From the NCBI GenBank assembly GCA_030705825.1, contig JAUZPR010000016.1, forward strand, positions 1 through 38,182: 38,182 bases of DNA. The letters run 5' to 3'. Of the stretch, positions 21,825-27,424 are shown one piece after another; the first letter of the stretch is position 1, and every line of letters begins with the position of its first letter. Made by a program: the position numbers and the translations under genes. This stretch comes from Bacillota bacterium (lineage in GTDB: Bacteria > Bacillota > Clostridia > Acetivibrionales > JANLFN01). The notes under the pieces are model-generated. The model had not been told where the DNA came from. It saw only the letters and a list, made by a program, of their open reading frames with translations, and made no database searches.

Positions 21825-23159
21825 TCATTCATTAGTATTTTTATCAGCCTTGTTTAGAATCTCTTTAGCCTTTCCTAAGTCCCCTTCTGATTCCTCTATG
21901 ATCCTGCTTACCGCGTCATACCCCAAATACGGTGTATACGCCGTAGCAAAGGCATATGAATTTTCCAGCAGTTCGCTGCACCTTTCCTTGTTGGGTTTGA
22001 TAAGCTCTATACATTTTCTTCGGAATATCTCAGCAGCATTTGTCAATAGTTCCAGGCTCTCAAGAATGGCTTCTGCAATCAGCGGCAGGAATGCATTAAG
22101 TTCAAATTCACCGTGTGAGGCTGCCATTGATATTGCATAATCATTGGCCGATACCTTCATCGAGACCTGCATAACCATTTCAGGTATTACGGGATTGACC
22201 TTCCCCGGCATAATAGTACTGCCCATTTGAAGCGGCGGAAGTGTAATTTCAGCCAGGCCTCCCTTAGGTCCTGAATTCATCAGACGCAAATCATTTGAAA
22301 TTTTCATAAGGTTTACCGAAAGTGCTTTTAACAGCCCGGATACTTCGACAAACACATCATTATTCTGAGTAATATCCATTGGATATTCGGCTGCGGCAAG
22401 CCCTATATCGGTTAATTCCCTAAGCTCCTCAATCACCTTGAAACGGTATTTTCGTTCGGCATTGTTCCCGGCACCCACTGCAGTTCCTCCAATGTTTACC
22501 TGCCTGAGCCTTTCTTCAACCTTGTATAATCTCCACCTGTCTCTGGCAATGGCCTGGGCATAGGAGCCGAATTCCTGTCCCAGTGTGATGGGTATGGCAT
22601 CCATAAGCTCGGTCCTGCCAAGCTTCGGAATGTTTTCGAATTCGTTCTCCTTTAACTGAAGCGCCTGCTGCAATTTGGCACAACAGTCGCTTAATTTTCT
22701 AAGCATCCTTATTGCAGCAATACGAAGTGCCGTAGGATATACGTCATTAGTGGATTGCCCACGGTTTACATCATCAAGAGGATGTATTATATCATATCTG
22801 CCGTATTCAAAACCAAGACTTTTAAGTGAAAGGTTTGCAATAACTTCGTTGACATTCATATTTGCAGAAGTTCCGGCACCGCCCTGAAGGGCATCGGTAA
22901 CAAAAGCGTCATCAGCCTTTCCTTCCAGTATAAAATCGCAGGCGTCTGAAATTGCTGAGTAGAAGTTTTCCTTGCCGATACCAAGCTTCTTATATGTCAG
23001 GGCCGCTGCCTTTTTTACTGTTACAATGGCATAAATGAGCTGCATATTGGTCTTTTTATATTTAAGTGCAAAGTTGCTGACTGCTCTGGTTGTTTGTATA
23101 CCGTACAATTTATCATTTTCAAGCTCTAATTCGCCGATTTTATCTTTTTCCATACGCAT
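21825..23159 (-). CDS. aspA: aspartate ammonia-lyase (fumarase/aspartase superfamily)
   Basis: LYGIQTTRAVSNF, GGAGTSANMNVNEVIAN, GSTIMPGKVNPVIPE. ATG at 23159 has SD TGAGGAA; the ORF track starts upstream at a TTG. Confidence 0.9.
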   Translation of the reverse strand: MRMEKDKIGELELENDKLYGIQTTRAVSNFALKYKKTNMQLIYAIVTVKKAAALTYKKLGIGKENFYSAISDACDFILEGKADDAFVTDALQGGAGTSANMNVNEVIANLSLKSLGFEYGRYDIIHPLDDVNRGQSTNDVYPTALRIAAIRMLRKLSDCCAKLQQALQLKENEFENIPKLGRTELMDAIPITLGQEFGSYAQAIARDRWRLYKVEERLRQVNIGGTAVGAGNNAERKYRFKVIEELRELTDIGLAAAEYPMDITQNNDVFVEVSGLLKALSVNLMKISNDLRLMNSGPKGGLAEITLPPLQMGSTIMPGKVNPVIPEMVMQVSMKVSANDYAISMAASHGEFELNAFLPLIAEAILESLELLTNAAEIFRRKCIELIKPNKERCSELLENSYAFATAYTPYLGYDAVSRIIEESEGDLGKAKEILNKADKNTNE

Positions 23160-23163
23160 AGGC

Positions 23164-24369
23164 TTATTCCTCAACTTCCGCCAGAATGTGCGGGAACATG
23201 GCTATACTACGCTTCAGTATTCCCTGCATATAAGCTATAAGGATACCATAATTGGTCATGGGTACCTGCTGATCTATGGCACATTTCTGCCGGTATTTTA
23301 TTTCTCTTTCATTAAGCATGCAGCCTCCACAGTGGACAATCATCCGATATCCGGACAGGTCATCGGGAAATTCCGTACCTGAAGTGAACTTAAAATTTAT
23401 CTGTTTACCGGTATAGTTTTTAATCCAGCGCGGCAGTTTTACCGTGCCGATATCGTCGCATTGCCTGTGATGCGTACAGCCTTCCGAAATAAGGACAGTG
23501 TCGCCATCCTTAAGGGATTCCAACACTTTTGCCCCCTTTACGGCTGTTTCAAGATTGCCTTTATATCTAGCAAAAAGTATAGAAAAGGAGGTCAGATAGA
23601 TATCATTCGGTGTATCTGCCGATACCTTTGCAAATACCTGGCTGTCGGTAATTACAAGCCTAGGCTTTTTACCAAGGTTCTCAAGCGTTTCCCTAAGCTC
23701 AAATTCCTTAACTACAATGGCGGTGGCATCAGCCTCAAGTATGTCACGTATGGTCTGCTGCTGGGGCAGGATCAAACGTCCTTTCGGAGCTGCCTTGTCA
23801 ATAGGTGTGACAAGTACGACAAAATCAGACGGACTAATAAGATCACCCACAATTTTCAACTTGGGTTCCTCAGTAACAGCCAAAGCCGCAATTTTCTCCT
23901 TAAGTGCTTCAATGTTATAGCCTGTAGCTGCACTTACATATATTTCATTTTTGTTTTCTGCCTGTTTATTTCCTATTAAATCGGATTTATTACAGGCAAT
24001 AATATAATTTATTTTCTTAGATTCAAAAAGTGCAAGGAGTTCTTCATCCTCTTTGGCTTTTCCGCATTGTGAATCAACCACCAATACTGCAACATCGGTT
24101 TTATTAAGTACCTGCCGTGTTTTTCTTACCCGAAGCTCACCCAGGGAGCCAATATCATCTATCCCCGGAGTATCAATAATCATTACAGGACCCAGGGGAA
24201 GCAGTTCCATAGCCTTGTATACGGGATCGGTAGTGGTACCCGATACATCGGATACTACAGCCAGATCCTGCCCTGTAACAGCATTAACTATACTCGATTT
24301 GCCTGCATTTCTCCTTCCGAAAAATCCAATATGTATCCGGTTGGATGACGGTGTATCATTTAATCCCAT
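23164..24369 (-). CDS. hydF: [FeFe]-hydrogenase H-cluster maturation GTPase HydF
   Basis: GFFGRRNAGKSSIVNAVTGQDLAVVSDVSGTTTDPVYK, IDTPGIDD, EGCTHHRQ and HCGGCMLN cluster ligands. Confidence 0.96.
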   Translation of the reverse strand: MGLNDTPSSNRIHIGFFGRRNAGKSSIVNAVTGQDLAVVSDVSGTTTDPVYKAMELLPLGPVMIIDTPGIDDIGSLGELRVRKTRQVLNKTDVAVLVVDSQCGKAKEDEELLALFESKKINYIIACNKSDLIGNKQAENKNEIYVSAATGYNIEALKEKIAALAVTEEPKLKIVGDLISPSDFVVLVTPIDKAAPKGRLILPQQQTIRDILEADATAIVVKEFELRETLENLGKKPRLVITDSQVFAKVSADTPNDIYLTSFSILFARYKGNLETAVKGAKVLESLKDGDTVLISEGCTHHRQCDDIGTVKLPRWIKNYTGKQINFKFTSGTEFPDDLSGYRMIVHCGGCMLNEREIKYRQKCAIDQQVPMTNYGILIAYMQGILKRSIAMFPHILAEVEE

Positions 24370-24382
24370 TTGGTTCACCTTC

Positions 24383-25801
24383 CTAAAATCTGAAATCTCT
24401 GCTTCCTTTACTGATATTTATTAGATTTTCCTTAACAATCTCTCTGACCTTTTCTTTTGGTATATTCGGTATTTCCTTTTGAATAAGAGCTTCACCAATG
24501 GCCTTTGTCTCAGGCGAAGCATAATCCTCAAGATATTCCTTCAGCGTCATAAGGGCATTAGGGTGGCAGCAGTTTAGTATCTGACCGCTTTTGCACAGGC
24601 TCATAAACCGGTCACCGGTCCTGCCTTCCCTGTAGCACGCAGTACAAAAGCTTGGGATGTAATCCATTTCCATAAGCCATTTTATAACTTCATCAAGTGT
24701 TCTCCTGTCATTTACATCAAACTGTGCAGTATTTTCATCTTCCGGTTCGGGTTCGCAATACCCGCCTACGCTGGTTTTTGATGCTCCGCTTATTTGAGAG
24801 ATTCCAAGATGGAGCACCCGTTCCCTGCAAGCCTTGCTTTCTCTGGTAGATACGATCATTCCCGTATATGGAACTGAAATACGGATGCATGCTACAATTT
24901 TGGCAAATATGTCATCATTGATACTGTTACTGAAAGAAGCGGGATCTACATCGTCAGCTGGACGGATTCTGGGTACGCTTATGGTATGAGGACCTACTCC
25001 GAGTGCCGCTTCGAGATGTTCAGCATGCATAAGCAATGCAGCAAATTCATAACGGTATAATTCGAGTCCGAACAACACACCAAGACCTACATCATCTATG
25101 CCGCCAAGCATGGCCCTGTCCATCGCCTCTGTATGATAGGCATAATTGTGTTTCGGCCCTGTAGGATGCAATTTTTCATAGCTATCCTTATGGTAGGTCT
25201 CCTGAAAAAGTATATACGTACCAATTCCGGCATCCTTCAGCTTTTTATAATTTTCTACGGTTGTTGCAGCTATATTGACATTTACACGCCGGATTGCACC
25301 ATTCTTATGCTTTATGCTGTAAATGGTATCAATACACTCCAGAATATACTCAATCGGGTTGTTTACCGGATCTTCGCCGGCTTCTATTGCAAGCCTTTTA
25401 TGGCCCATATCCTGAAGAGCGATAACTTCCCGGCGAATCTCGTCCTGTGTCATTTTCTTTCTGGTAATATTTTTGTTCTTCATATGGTAAGGGCAGTATA
25501 CGCAGCCGTTTACACAGTAATTGGACAGGTAGAGTGGTGCAAACATTACTATGCGGTTGCCGTAAAAATCTTTCTTTATCTGTTGTGCAAGAGCATATAT
25601 TTCCTTGTTTTTTTCTTCCAGCTGACAATCAAGTAAAACGGCCGCCTCCCTATGTGAAAGCCCCTTGCGGAGCTTTGCCTTTTCAATTATGCGGTCAATC
25701 AGCTGTACATTGTTTTTATTCTTTTCAGCATACTCAAGCGTTTCGAGAACCTCCTGGTGCGATATGAATTCCTCTGCTTTTGATGACCTTGGATTATACA
25801 T
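24383..25801 (-). CDS. hydG: [FeFe]-hydrogenase H-cluster maturation radical SAM protein HydG
   Basis: APLYLSNYCVNGCVYCPYHMKNKNITRKKMT; C-terminal CTACYREGRTGDRFMSLCKSGQILNCC. ATG at 25801 with AAGGGAG SD. Confidence 0.96.
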   Translation of the reverse strand: MYNPRSSKAEEFISHQEVLETLEYAEKNKNNVQLIDRIIEKAKLRKGLSHREAAVLLDCQLEEKNKEIYALAQQIKKDFYGNRIVMFAPLYLSNYCVNGCVYCPYHMKNKNITRKKMTQDEIRREVIALQDMGHKRLAIEAGEDPVNNPIEYILECIDTIYSIKHKNGAIRRVNVNIAATTVENYKKLKDAGIGTYILFQETYHKDSYEKLHPTGPKHNYAYHTEAMDRAMLGGIDDVGLGVLFGLELYRYEFAALLMHAEHLEAALGVGPHTISVPRIRPADDVDPASFSNSINDDIFAKIVACIRISVPYTGMIVSTRESKACRERVLHLGISQISGASKTSVGGYCEPEPEDENTAQFDVNDRRTLDEVIKWLMEMDYIPSFCTACYREGRTGDRFMSLCKSGQILNCCHPNALMTLKEYLEDYASPETKAIGEALIQKEIPNIPKEKVREIVKENLINISKGSRDFRF

Positions 25802-25859
25802 ATTAAAACTCCCTTCTTGGTTAAGGTTAAAAACTTCTTCCCCTAAAGTAATGATTTTT

Positions 25860-26903
25860 TTATAAGATTGATTTGTGATCTCCACGAGAAACCGATATAT
25901 GGCAGCCGATAGCTTCTATCCGTTTTTGCAGGCAATACCGGCATTCAGCAGCCTCATCCCCCGTGCAAATCTTGTTATCGTAAAGCAAATATTTCTTCCT
26001 CACGTCTACAGGTGAAAGATTGGGCATGACCACATTAGCTCCTGCCAGTACACCCATCTCTCTGCCTTTGGTGTGGATAGTTCCCAGTGCGGTAGTTGCC
26101 GGCAGCAGTACCTGCGGAAGCATTAAACGGATGATTCCCAGTAAAAACAGGGTAAGCTCCAGTGTTCCAGCCGTTTCGCCGGCAAAAGGGGTCCCGTGAT
26201 GCGGTATGAATGGGCCTATTCCCACCATATGCGGATTGAGCTCCTTTATAAACTGCAGATCCTCGACCAGGCAGTCGGTGGTCTGATAAGGTGAACCTAC
26301 CATAAAACCGCAGCCTACCTGATAACCGATTTCTTTCAAGTCATACAGACATTTTTTTCTGTTTTTTAGAGACATTTTTGATGGGTGAAGTCTTCCATAA
26401 TGCTCTTCGTTTGCAGTCTCATGTCTTAAAAGGTAACGGTCGGCACCTGCATCATAAAACGCTTTGTATGTTTCATAGCCCTTCTCGCCTAAAGAAAGTG
26501 TAACGGCACACATAGGATAGCCTTTTTTTATACTGCGGATGATATCAACCATTTTTTCGTCCGAATAATAACCGTCCTCTCCGCCCTGTAGGACAAAGGT
26601 ACGAAAGCCCAGATCATATCCCATTTTACAGCAATCGAGTATCTGTTCCTTTGATAGGCGGTACCTTTCAACACTTGAATTGCTTTTGCGGATACCGCAG
26701 TAATAGCAGTCATTTCTGCAATAGTTGGTAAATTCTATAAGGCCACGTATGTATATATCATAACCATAATTTCTGATCCTGACCCCTCTGGCCTTTTCGA
26801 AAAGATACTCAGAAATTTCAGGATTCCGGTTATCTATCAATTCCTTATACTCTTGAGGCAAAAGCGAGGATGTTTGATAAAGCTTGTCAATAAGCTGCTT
26901 CAT
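25860..26903 (-). CDS. hydE: [FeFe]-hydrogenase H-cluster maturation radical SAM protein HydE
   Basis: RGLIEFTNYCRNDCYYCGIRKSNSSVERYRLSKEQIL, FVLQGGEDGYYSDE, PNLSPVDVRKKYLLYDNK. Confidence 0.96.
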   Translation of the reverse strand: MKQLIDKLYQTSSLLPQEYKELIDNRNPEISEYLFEKARGVRIRNYGYDIYIRGLIEFTNYCRNDCYYCGIRKSNSSVERYRLSKEQILDCCKMGYDLGFRTFVLQGGEDGYYSDEKMVDIIRSIKKGYPMCAVTLSLGEKGYETYKAFYDAGADRYLLRHETANEEHYGRLHPSKMSLKNRKKCLYDLKEIGYQVGCGFMVGSPYQTTDCLVEDLQFIKELNPHMVGIGPFIPHHGTPFAGETAGTLELTLFLLGIIRLMLPQVLLPATTALGTIHTKGREMGVLAGANVVMPNLSPVDVRKKYLLYDNKICTGDEAAECRYCLQKRIEAIGCHISVSRGDHKSIL

Positions 26904-27174
26904 CGGTTCCTCCTGCTTTCTCCTTGCCTGTTATCTTTGAAAATACAGCCTTAGAGCTTACACCCTTAAGTTTACCAAGCTTTCCGGAAAGGGCACTGAT
27001 AATATCCTGATTGGCATCCACAACAATACTTATTATGCTTATACCCTTTTCACGGTAGGGCAGTCCCATTCTACCAATTATATACTTACCATATTCGTGT
27101 AATATACCGTTTACCTTTTCAGCAGAATCAAAGTTTTCAACAATAATCCCTATAACAGCCACTCTTGTATCCAA
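26887..27174 (-). CDS. TM1266-family iron-only hydrogenase system putative regulator
   Basis: RVAVIGIIVENFDSAEKVNGILHEYGKYIIGRMGLPYREKGISIISIVVDA; TTG start with GGGAGGG SD; first gene of the hyd operon. Confidence 0.9.
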   Translation of the reverse strand: MDTRVAVIGIIVENFDSAEKVNGILHEYGKYIIGRMGLPYREKGISIISIVVDANQDIISALSGKLGKLKGVSSKAVFSKITGKEKAGGTDEAAY

Positions 27175-27208
27175 AAAAACCCTCCCTTCTTTTAATCAAA
27201 TCTCTTAT

Positions 27209-27310
27209 ATAAAATAAAATGCGCCTCGGAAGGCGCAGTATGATCATAAATCAAGCTTTTGATAATTATGAAAATTGCTGTACCTTCCGCCTTATATCTG
27301 GTATTCGGCG
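27209..27310 (-). promoter_or_regulatory. candidate structured leader/attenuator of the hyd operon
   Basis: CGCC-GAA-TACC-(8 nt)-GGCG-GAA-GGTA interleaved stems, then TGCGCCT-TCCG-AGGCGCA terminator with T-rich tail; CGGAAGG can pair with CCTTCCG. Confidence 0.6.
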
Positions 27311-27369
27311 TCAGAAACAATTATGTTTTATCCCTTGTCAAAAGAAATCTCTCGTGACTTGGTAATTTT

Positions 27370-27398
27370 AATTTATAATATTTTTAAGTAATTGTCAA
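27370..27398 (-). promoter_or_regulatory. predicted sigma-A promoter of the hyd operon
   Basis: TTGACA - 17 nt - TAAATT on the minus strand. Confidence 0.7.
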
Positions 27399-27424
27399 TA
27401 CTTTAACGAAGTTTGCTTTTTACT

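Follow-up and report, generated by a model that had tools for sequence, protein, structure and literature searches.

A conserved attenuator-like leader RNA of [FeFe]-hydrogenase maturation operons as a candidate target of TM1266-family proteins

The TM1266-hydE-hydG-hydF-aspA operon of the window, by which we mean the whole 38,182-nucleotide stretch of DNA analysed here, is preceded on the minus strand, between a promoter at 27398-27370 and a TTG start codon at 27174, by a leader RNA that represents a real and conserved attenuator family. Both the element and its attenuation logic are well supported: conservation, covariation, the terminator, the alternative pairing and the genomic association were each observed by computation. 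We regard the leader as a cis-acting attenuator whose hairpin TM1266 most likely binds in a PyrR-like autogenous control, a reading to which we give moderate credence. Maturation of [FeFe]-hydrogenases depends on three enzymes of its own and on the toxic ligands CO and cyanide, and to our knowledge the control of the maturation genes in anaerobes is poorly known. A conserved leader RNA accompanying TM1266 offers a concrete candidate target and mechanism for this protein, ties hydrogenase maturation to further operons with TM1266, those of ABC transporters and of a nitrogenase-like cluster, and represents an RNA family that Rfam lacks and that is found in many anaerobic bacteria.

The features of leader and operon are collected in Table 1. 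All sequence strings quoted in the original prediction were present at their places on the minus strand. In 20 of 25 related leaders a TTGAC..TATAAT-like pair is present no more than 60 nt ahead of the first hairpin, and the transcript is predicted to start just before this hairpin. The window TM1266 protein belongs to TIGR03959, with a score well above the curated cut-off of 60.8 bits. For hydG, the ATG at 25801 (MYNPRSSKAEEF) is a more likely start than the GTG of the listed open reading frame. The operon also includes an aspartate ammonia-lyase family gene; a link between ammonia-lyases and synthesis of the dithiomethylamine ligand has been described (PMC11736057).

Table 1 Leader elements and operon genes in the window
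Feature	Position	Strand	Basis
Promoter, sigma-70 type: TTGACA (27398-27393), 17-nt spacer, TAAATT (27375-27370)	27370-27398	-	sequence
5' hairpin, first motif copy, CC-AA-GUCA-..-UGAC-AA-GG	27331-27364	-	covariation; structural scan; identity to core
Core hairpin, second motif copy, UCU-GA-CGCC-GA-AUA..UAU-AA-GGCG-GA-AGG	27280-27316	-	models R1 and R3; covariation; folding
Antiterminator strand CGGAAGG, 3' strand of core	27283-27289	-	sequence; recurring complementarity; truncated-transcript fold
CCUUCCG, terminator 5' arm and loop, partner of 27283-27289 in the antiterminated state	27227-27233	-	sequence; complementarity; fold
Intrinsic terminator UGCGCCU-UCCG-AGGCGCA (hairpin 27237-27220) and U-tract, UUUUAUUUUA	27210-27237	-	sequence; equivalents in relatives
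Shine-Dalgarno sequence AGAAGGGAGG	27181-27190	-	sequence
TM1266-family gene, first of operon, TTG start	26887-27174	-	TIGR03959, 119.4 bits; PF21699; fold matches 2nzc
hydE	25860-26903	-	TIGR03956, 599 bits
hydG	24383-25885	-	TIGR03955, 940 bits, match from residue 30
hydF	23164-24378	-	TIGR03918, 584 bits
Aspartate ammonia-lyase family gene (aspA), last of operon	21825-23174	-	NF008909, 590 bits, above cut-off

No gathering-score match to Rfam 15 was found in the window leader, where a relaxed search returned sub-threshold noise only, and 18 related loci had none in their hyd/TM1266 leaders either. This agrees with the earlier failure to recognise a known riboswitch class by eye. A resemblance of the Lachnospiraceae leaders to the Moco riboswitch was considered, and Rfam gives it no support. 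A search of open-licence PMC papers found neither a report of this leader RNA nor a described target of TM1266.

Eighty loci were gathered from public genomes by a TM1266 protein search, and many of them carry the same leader immediately upstream. Leader, terminator and a covarying hairpin are kept in these relatives, as the original prediction had required of a genuine regulatory element. In leaders resembling that of the window, the consensus starts with a 5' part, UUGCU-GA-GYCA..AAGA..UCUU..UGRC-AA-AGCA, and a linker, continues with the core, CU-GA-CGCC-RA-AUA..UAU-RA-GGCG-RA-AGGCAC, and ends roughly 30-110 nt later with a terminator, GCGCCUU..AGGCGC-U-run. Other groups have a single shorter hairpin, CUGACAU-AA-AG..CU-GA-GUG-AA-AG, or a GCC-GA-..GGC-AUAGG form. 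The conserved unit is a hairpin of about 37 nt in which 3-4 bp separate two purine-rich internal loops (RA/RA), and it is nearly two-fold symmetric, each strand reading CU-GA-N3-4-RA-(AG). This nested structure emerged from folding of single sequences and from alignments, and unguided RNAalifold recovered the same kind of hairpin, together with a terminator, in a divergent group. Among 36 core hairpins, 86.7% of the cells are paired and 59 carry double changes, compared with 25.8 in shuffles (0 of 500 shuffles), and all slid controls fell below the true alignment in the covariation test. An outer stem below the core (UUGU:ACAG) is paired in just 58% across relatives and was left out of the model. 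In L044 and L100, a long extra stem-loop is inserted in the apical loop of the core hairpin.

The roughly 40 nt before the core, which had been overlooked in the original prediction, fold as a second hairpin of like architecture. When both hairpins of 12 tandem leaders were considered, 7 pairs showed double changes and none of 500 shuffles reached the covariation score. The 5' hairpin matches its own core at a mean of 10.75 of 16 non-stem positions (5.1 when shuffled), and in several leaders a purely structural scan put it first among the candidates. Model R3, which derives from the 3'/core hairpins, failed by itself to find the 5' hairpins. Based on these sequence comparisons, the two hairpins are likely homologous copies, a grade kept short of proven because the core-built model misses the 5' one. 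G001 (L010), from the same family as the window genome, has TM1266 and no recognisable leader. Beside another TM1266 leader, on the opposite strand, lies a T-box leader (RF00230, 131 bits; L012:3370-3657, minus strand).

The window leader has a terminator between promoter and first gene and an upstream element complementary to the 5' arm of that terminator, the two features that define a transcription attenuator. An intrinsic terminator follows the hairpin in 56 of 58 related leaders and in 16% of shuffled sequences. The proposed complementarity between CGGAAGG and CCUUCCG was confirmed in the sequence, and complementarity of this type is kept in relatives: between the 3' part of the hairpin and the 5' arm of the terminator it has a mean z of -1.6 against shuffled sequences, with 71% of values below -1. 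When the window leader is made to end before the 3' arm of the terminator, the minimum free energy fold is the antiterminator (-36.2 kcal/mol). The complete leader folds into motif plus terminator at -40.8 kcal/mol, against -35.3 kcal/mol with the core blocked, a gap of 5.5. Covariation, terminators and alternative pairing together support the earlier proposal of an attenuator in which core folding and termination depend on mutually exclusive pairings.

In three loci (L021, L036, L160) the hairpin instead overlaps the Shine-Dalgarno region of hydG. Two of these overlapping hairpins, L021:3857-3893 and L036:4327-4361, come from metagenome-assembled genomes (MAGs) labelled Alphaproteobacteria, so that this form would be a translational variant lying, by MAG label, outside Clostridia. 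The overlap may serve as a second expression platform of the same polarity as the terminator leaders. Since the two types of leader agree in polarity, a stabilised hairpin would correspond to the off state.

Based on these patterns, we infer a direction of control, binding by TM1266 and the involvement of a ligand. The nascent leader would bear one or two copies of the near-symmetric, purine-looped hairpin. With the hairpin intact, the downstream intrinsic terminator could form and the operon would be off. Were the 3' strand to pair with the terminator 5' arm instead, polymerase would read through and the operon would be on. A TM1266-family protein, usually the product of the operon's first gene, may bind the hairpin and, probably together with a small ligand or metal, stabilise it, thereby repressing its own H-cluster maturation operon in a PyrR-like manner.

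Genome-wide searches place the hairpin in a narrow context, with nearly all confident matches preceding TM1266, hydE or hydG. Model R1, searched in 388 genomes of the class at E<=0.05, matched in 14, of which 11 lie before TM1266 and 3 before hydG; these 14 include three training sequences or identical ones. Model R2 gave 9 matches at E<0.01, before TM1266 (7), hydE (1) and hydG (1), and what it matches above E 0.08 is chance. Among 80 genomes with TM1266, every one of the 14 R3 matches at E<1e-3, some of them training sequences, adjoins TM1266, hydE or hydG. R3 also found confident TM1266/hyd matches in further classes among 398 genomes of the phylum, where false positives are mixed in at E 5e-5 to 1e-3, so single matches need context. 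Part of the taxonomic evidence came from searching with TM1266 as the query. R3 matches outside the TM1266/hyd context, mostly at E>0.006, were judged chance or unrelated on inspection, as were those near or below 1e-3 in G610/G505/G469, G611, G402, G394, G530, G002 and G076. Weak R3 matches in genus g300 (L194, L202, L203) fall in an intergenic stretch that is conserved, UAUCGAACRCAAAAUGCAUUUAAUUAAGUGAAAGGCAUU; a terminator-like hairpin comes next, with no gene near, and the matches are probably unrelated.

A few matches precede ABC-transporter or FecCD/nitrogenase-like operons, and these too contain a TM1266 gene. In G439, found without preselection, and in G141 the hairpin stands in front of an operon of the order TM1266-FecCD permease-ATPase-(HydE)-NifH-like-nitrogenase-like, and the permease gene of G439 is preceded by a second hairpin with its own terminator. 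The G439 operon (L217) encodes a FecCD permease, HydE, a NifH-like protein and two nitrogenase-like proteins, and its ABC ATPase (L217:4725-5783, minus strand) carries a TM1266-like domain at its C terminus (PF21699, E 5.9e-17). The hairpin of G090, G353 and a Lachnospiraceae group precedes TM1266 and then an NMT1-type ABC transporter; an attenuator leader and TM1266 followed by an NMT1/THI5-type transporter operon were seen at L031, L035, L064, L066, L087 and L090. Because the same RNA accompanies TM1266 genes outside hydrogenase operons, TM1266 is the common factor. SAM, Fe-S status and a TM1266-protein interaction had all been raised as possible signals; as far as gene neighbourhoods can tell, genomic context favours the last. 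TM1266 is present in 238 of 388 genomes of the class sample. Of the genomes in which the motif matched next to TM1266 or hyd genes, all but two carry TM1266, a figure to be read against this high base rate; since most hyd-bearing Clostridia have TM1266, the co-occurrence is not statistically decisive.

The predicted structure of the TM1266 protein is a single ferredoxin-like domain (beta-alpha-beta-beta-alpha-beta) that matches PDB 2nzc (TM1266) and the C-terminal domain of NikR, with a Foldseek probability of 1.00 to NikR chains. Domain search and predicted structure agree on a solely regulatory NikR-C/ACT-like fold with no DNA-binding domain. The structure of TM1266, 2nzc, dates from 2006, and TM1266 is annotated as a putative hydrogenase-system regulator. 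We hold TM1266 as effector with moderate confidence. More tentatively, TM1266 proteins could found a new family of ligand-sensing attenuation regulators that bind RNA and have a NikR-C/ACT-like fold; they would act through the hairpin, by termination or Shine-Dalgarno masking, on H-cluster maturation, the FecCD/nitrogenase-like cluster and NMT1-type transporters.

Known systems offer partial parallels. In the Bacillus pyr attenuators, an antiterminator competes with a leader hairpin whose purine-rich internal loop is conserved, the gene of the regulator PyrR comes first in the operon, and the bound hairpin leads to termination. The TM1266 leader likewise sets a purine-looped hairpin against an antiterminator, with the putative regulator gene first, and binding would again mean termination. 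Its sequence and architecture differ, however (two symmetric RA/RA loops, often tandem hairpins), as does the NikR-C/ACT fold of TM1266, whose role is putative, from that of PyrR. NikR, the nickel regulator, shares its C-terminal fold with TM1266, which lacks the ribbon-helix-helix DNA-binding domain and for which the proposed target is RNA rather than a DNA operator. As with HutP and with TRAP (PMC3913778), a small protein that binds a ligand and has no DNA-binding domain would govern intrinsic termination in the operon of its own pathway, although the TM1266 leader has no (G/U)AG repeats and the target would be a structured hairpin.

Alternatively, the hairpin could be a true riboswitch that directly binds a small molecule or metal linked to the H-cluster, with TM1266 sensing the same compound separately and the attenuator mechanism unchanged. 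The leader resembles transcription-terminating riboswitches in being a compact conserved RNA with terminator/antiterminator switching, occasional Shine-Dalgarno overlap and tandem copies; such use of two expression platforms and of tandem copies is known from some riboswitches. The hairpin also lies before hydG in two genomes with no detectable TM1266 gene (G015, G193), other sampled congeneric genomes having one. Among genomes with hydG and without TM1266, these are 2 of about 27, which are neither numerous nor distantly related enough for a firm statement on co-occurrence. In contrast to such riboswitches, the leader has no Rfam 15 match, and what constantly accompanies it is the gene of a protein. 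What is conserved amounts to a simple stem, with internal loops that are symmetric and with few unpaired bases kept, and it occurs in three different pathways that share the TM1266 gene and not one metabolite. A riboswitch appears less likely. Recognition by another trans-acting RNA-binding protein or a small RNA would also account for the two genomes without detected TM1266, and a near-symmetric hairpin would suit any dimeric protein; as TM1266 is the most constantly adjacent gene, also outside hyd operons, we consider this improbable. It is very improbable that the leader is a passive, unregulated attenuator or an mRNA-stability hairpin that only sets basal expression: the full-length fold can accommodate hairpin and terminator together with no factor bound, but a passive terminator would need far less conservation than the loop bases and the alternative pairing show, and the gene association is narrow. 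Hardly credible is the H-type pseudoknot riboswitch first proposed for CGCC-GAA-UACC-AGAUAUAA-GGCG-GAA-GGUA (27310-27281, minus strand): both complementary pairs exist in the window and CGCC:GGCG covaries, but UACC:GGUA (27300-27303 with 27281-27284) is absent from most relatives, its partners differing without compensation in most of 12 leaders (e.g. UACA/GGCA, UAUU/GGCA), and the UAC segment belongs to the inner stem of the nested hairpin, which has covariation support.

Leader and TM1266 gene are also found apart. Many other TM1266 genes showed no detectable leader, and some genomes have the hairpin in front of hydG or hydE and a leaderless TM1266 gene at another place. A second TM1266 subfamily (e.g. 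VSNREE..VDGTND; L225, L227, L229, L231, L233) stands alone, without hyd genes or a recognisable leader. The window genome (G000) contains two further weak TM1266-like domains (22.2 bits), L223 (C238:13939-14118) and L224 (C38:9499-9678), the latter followed by a NifH-like open reading frame.
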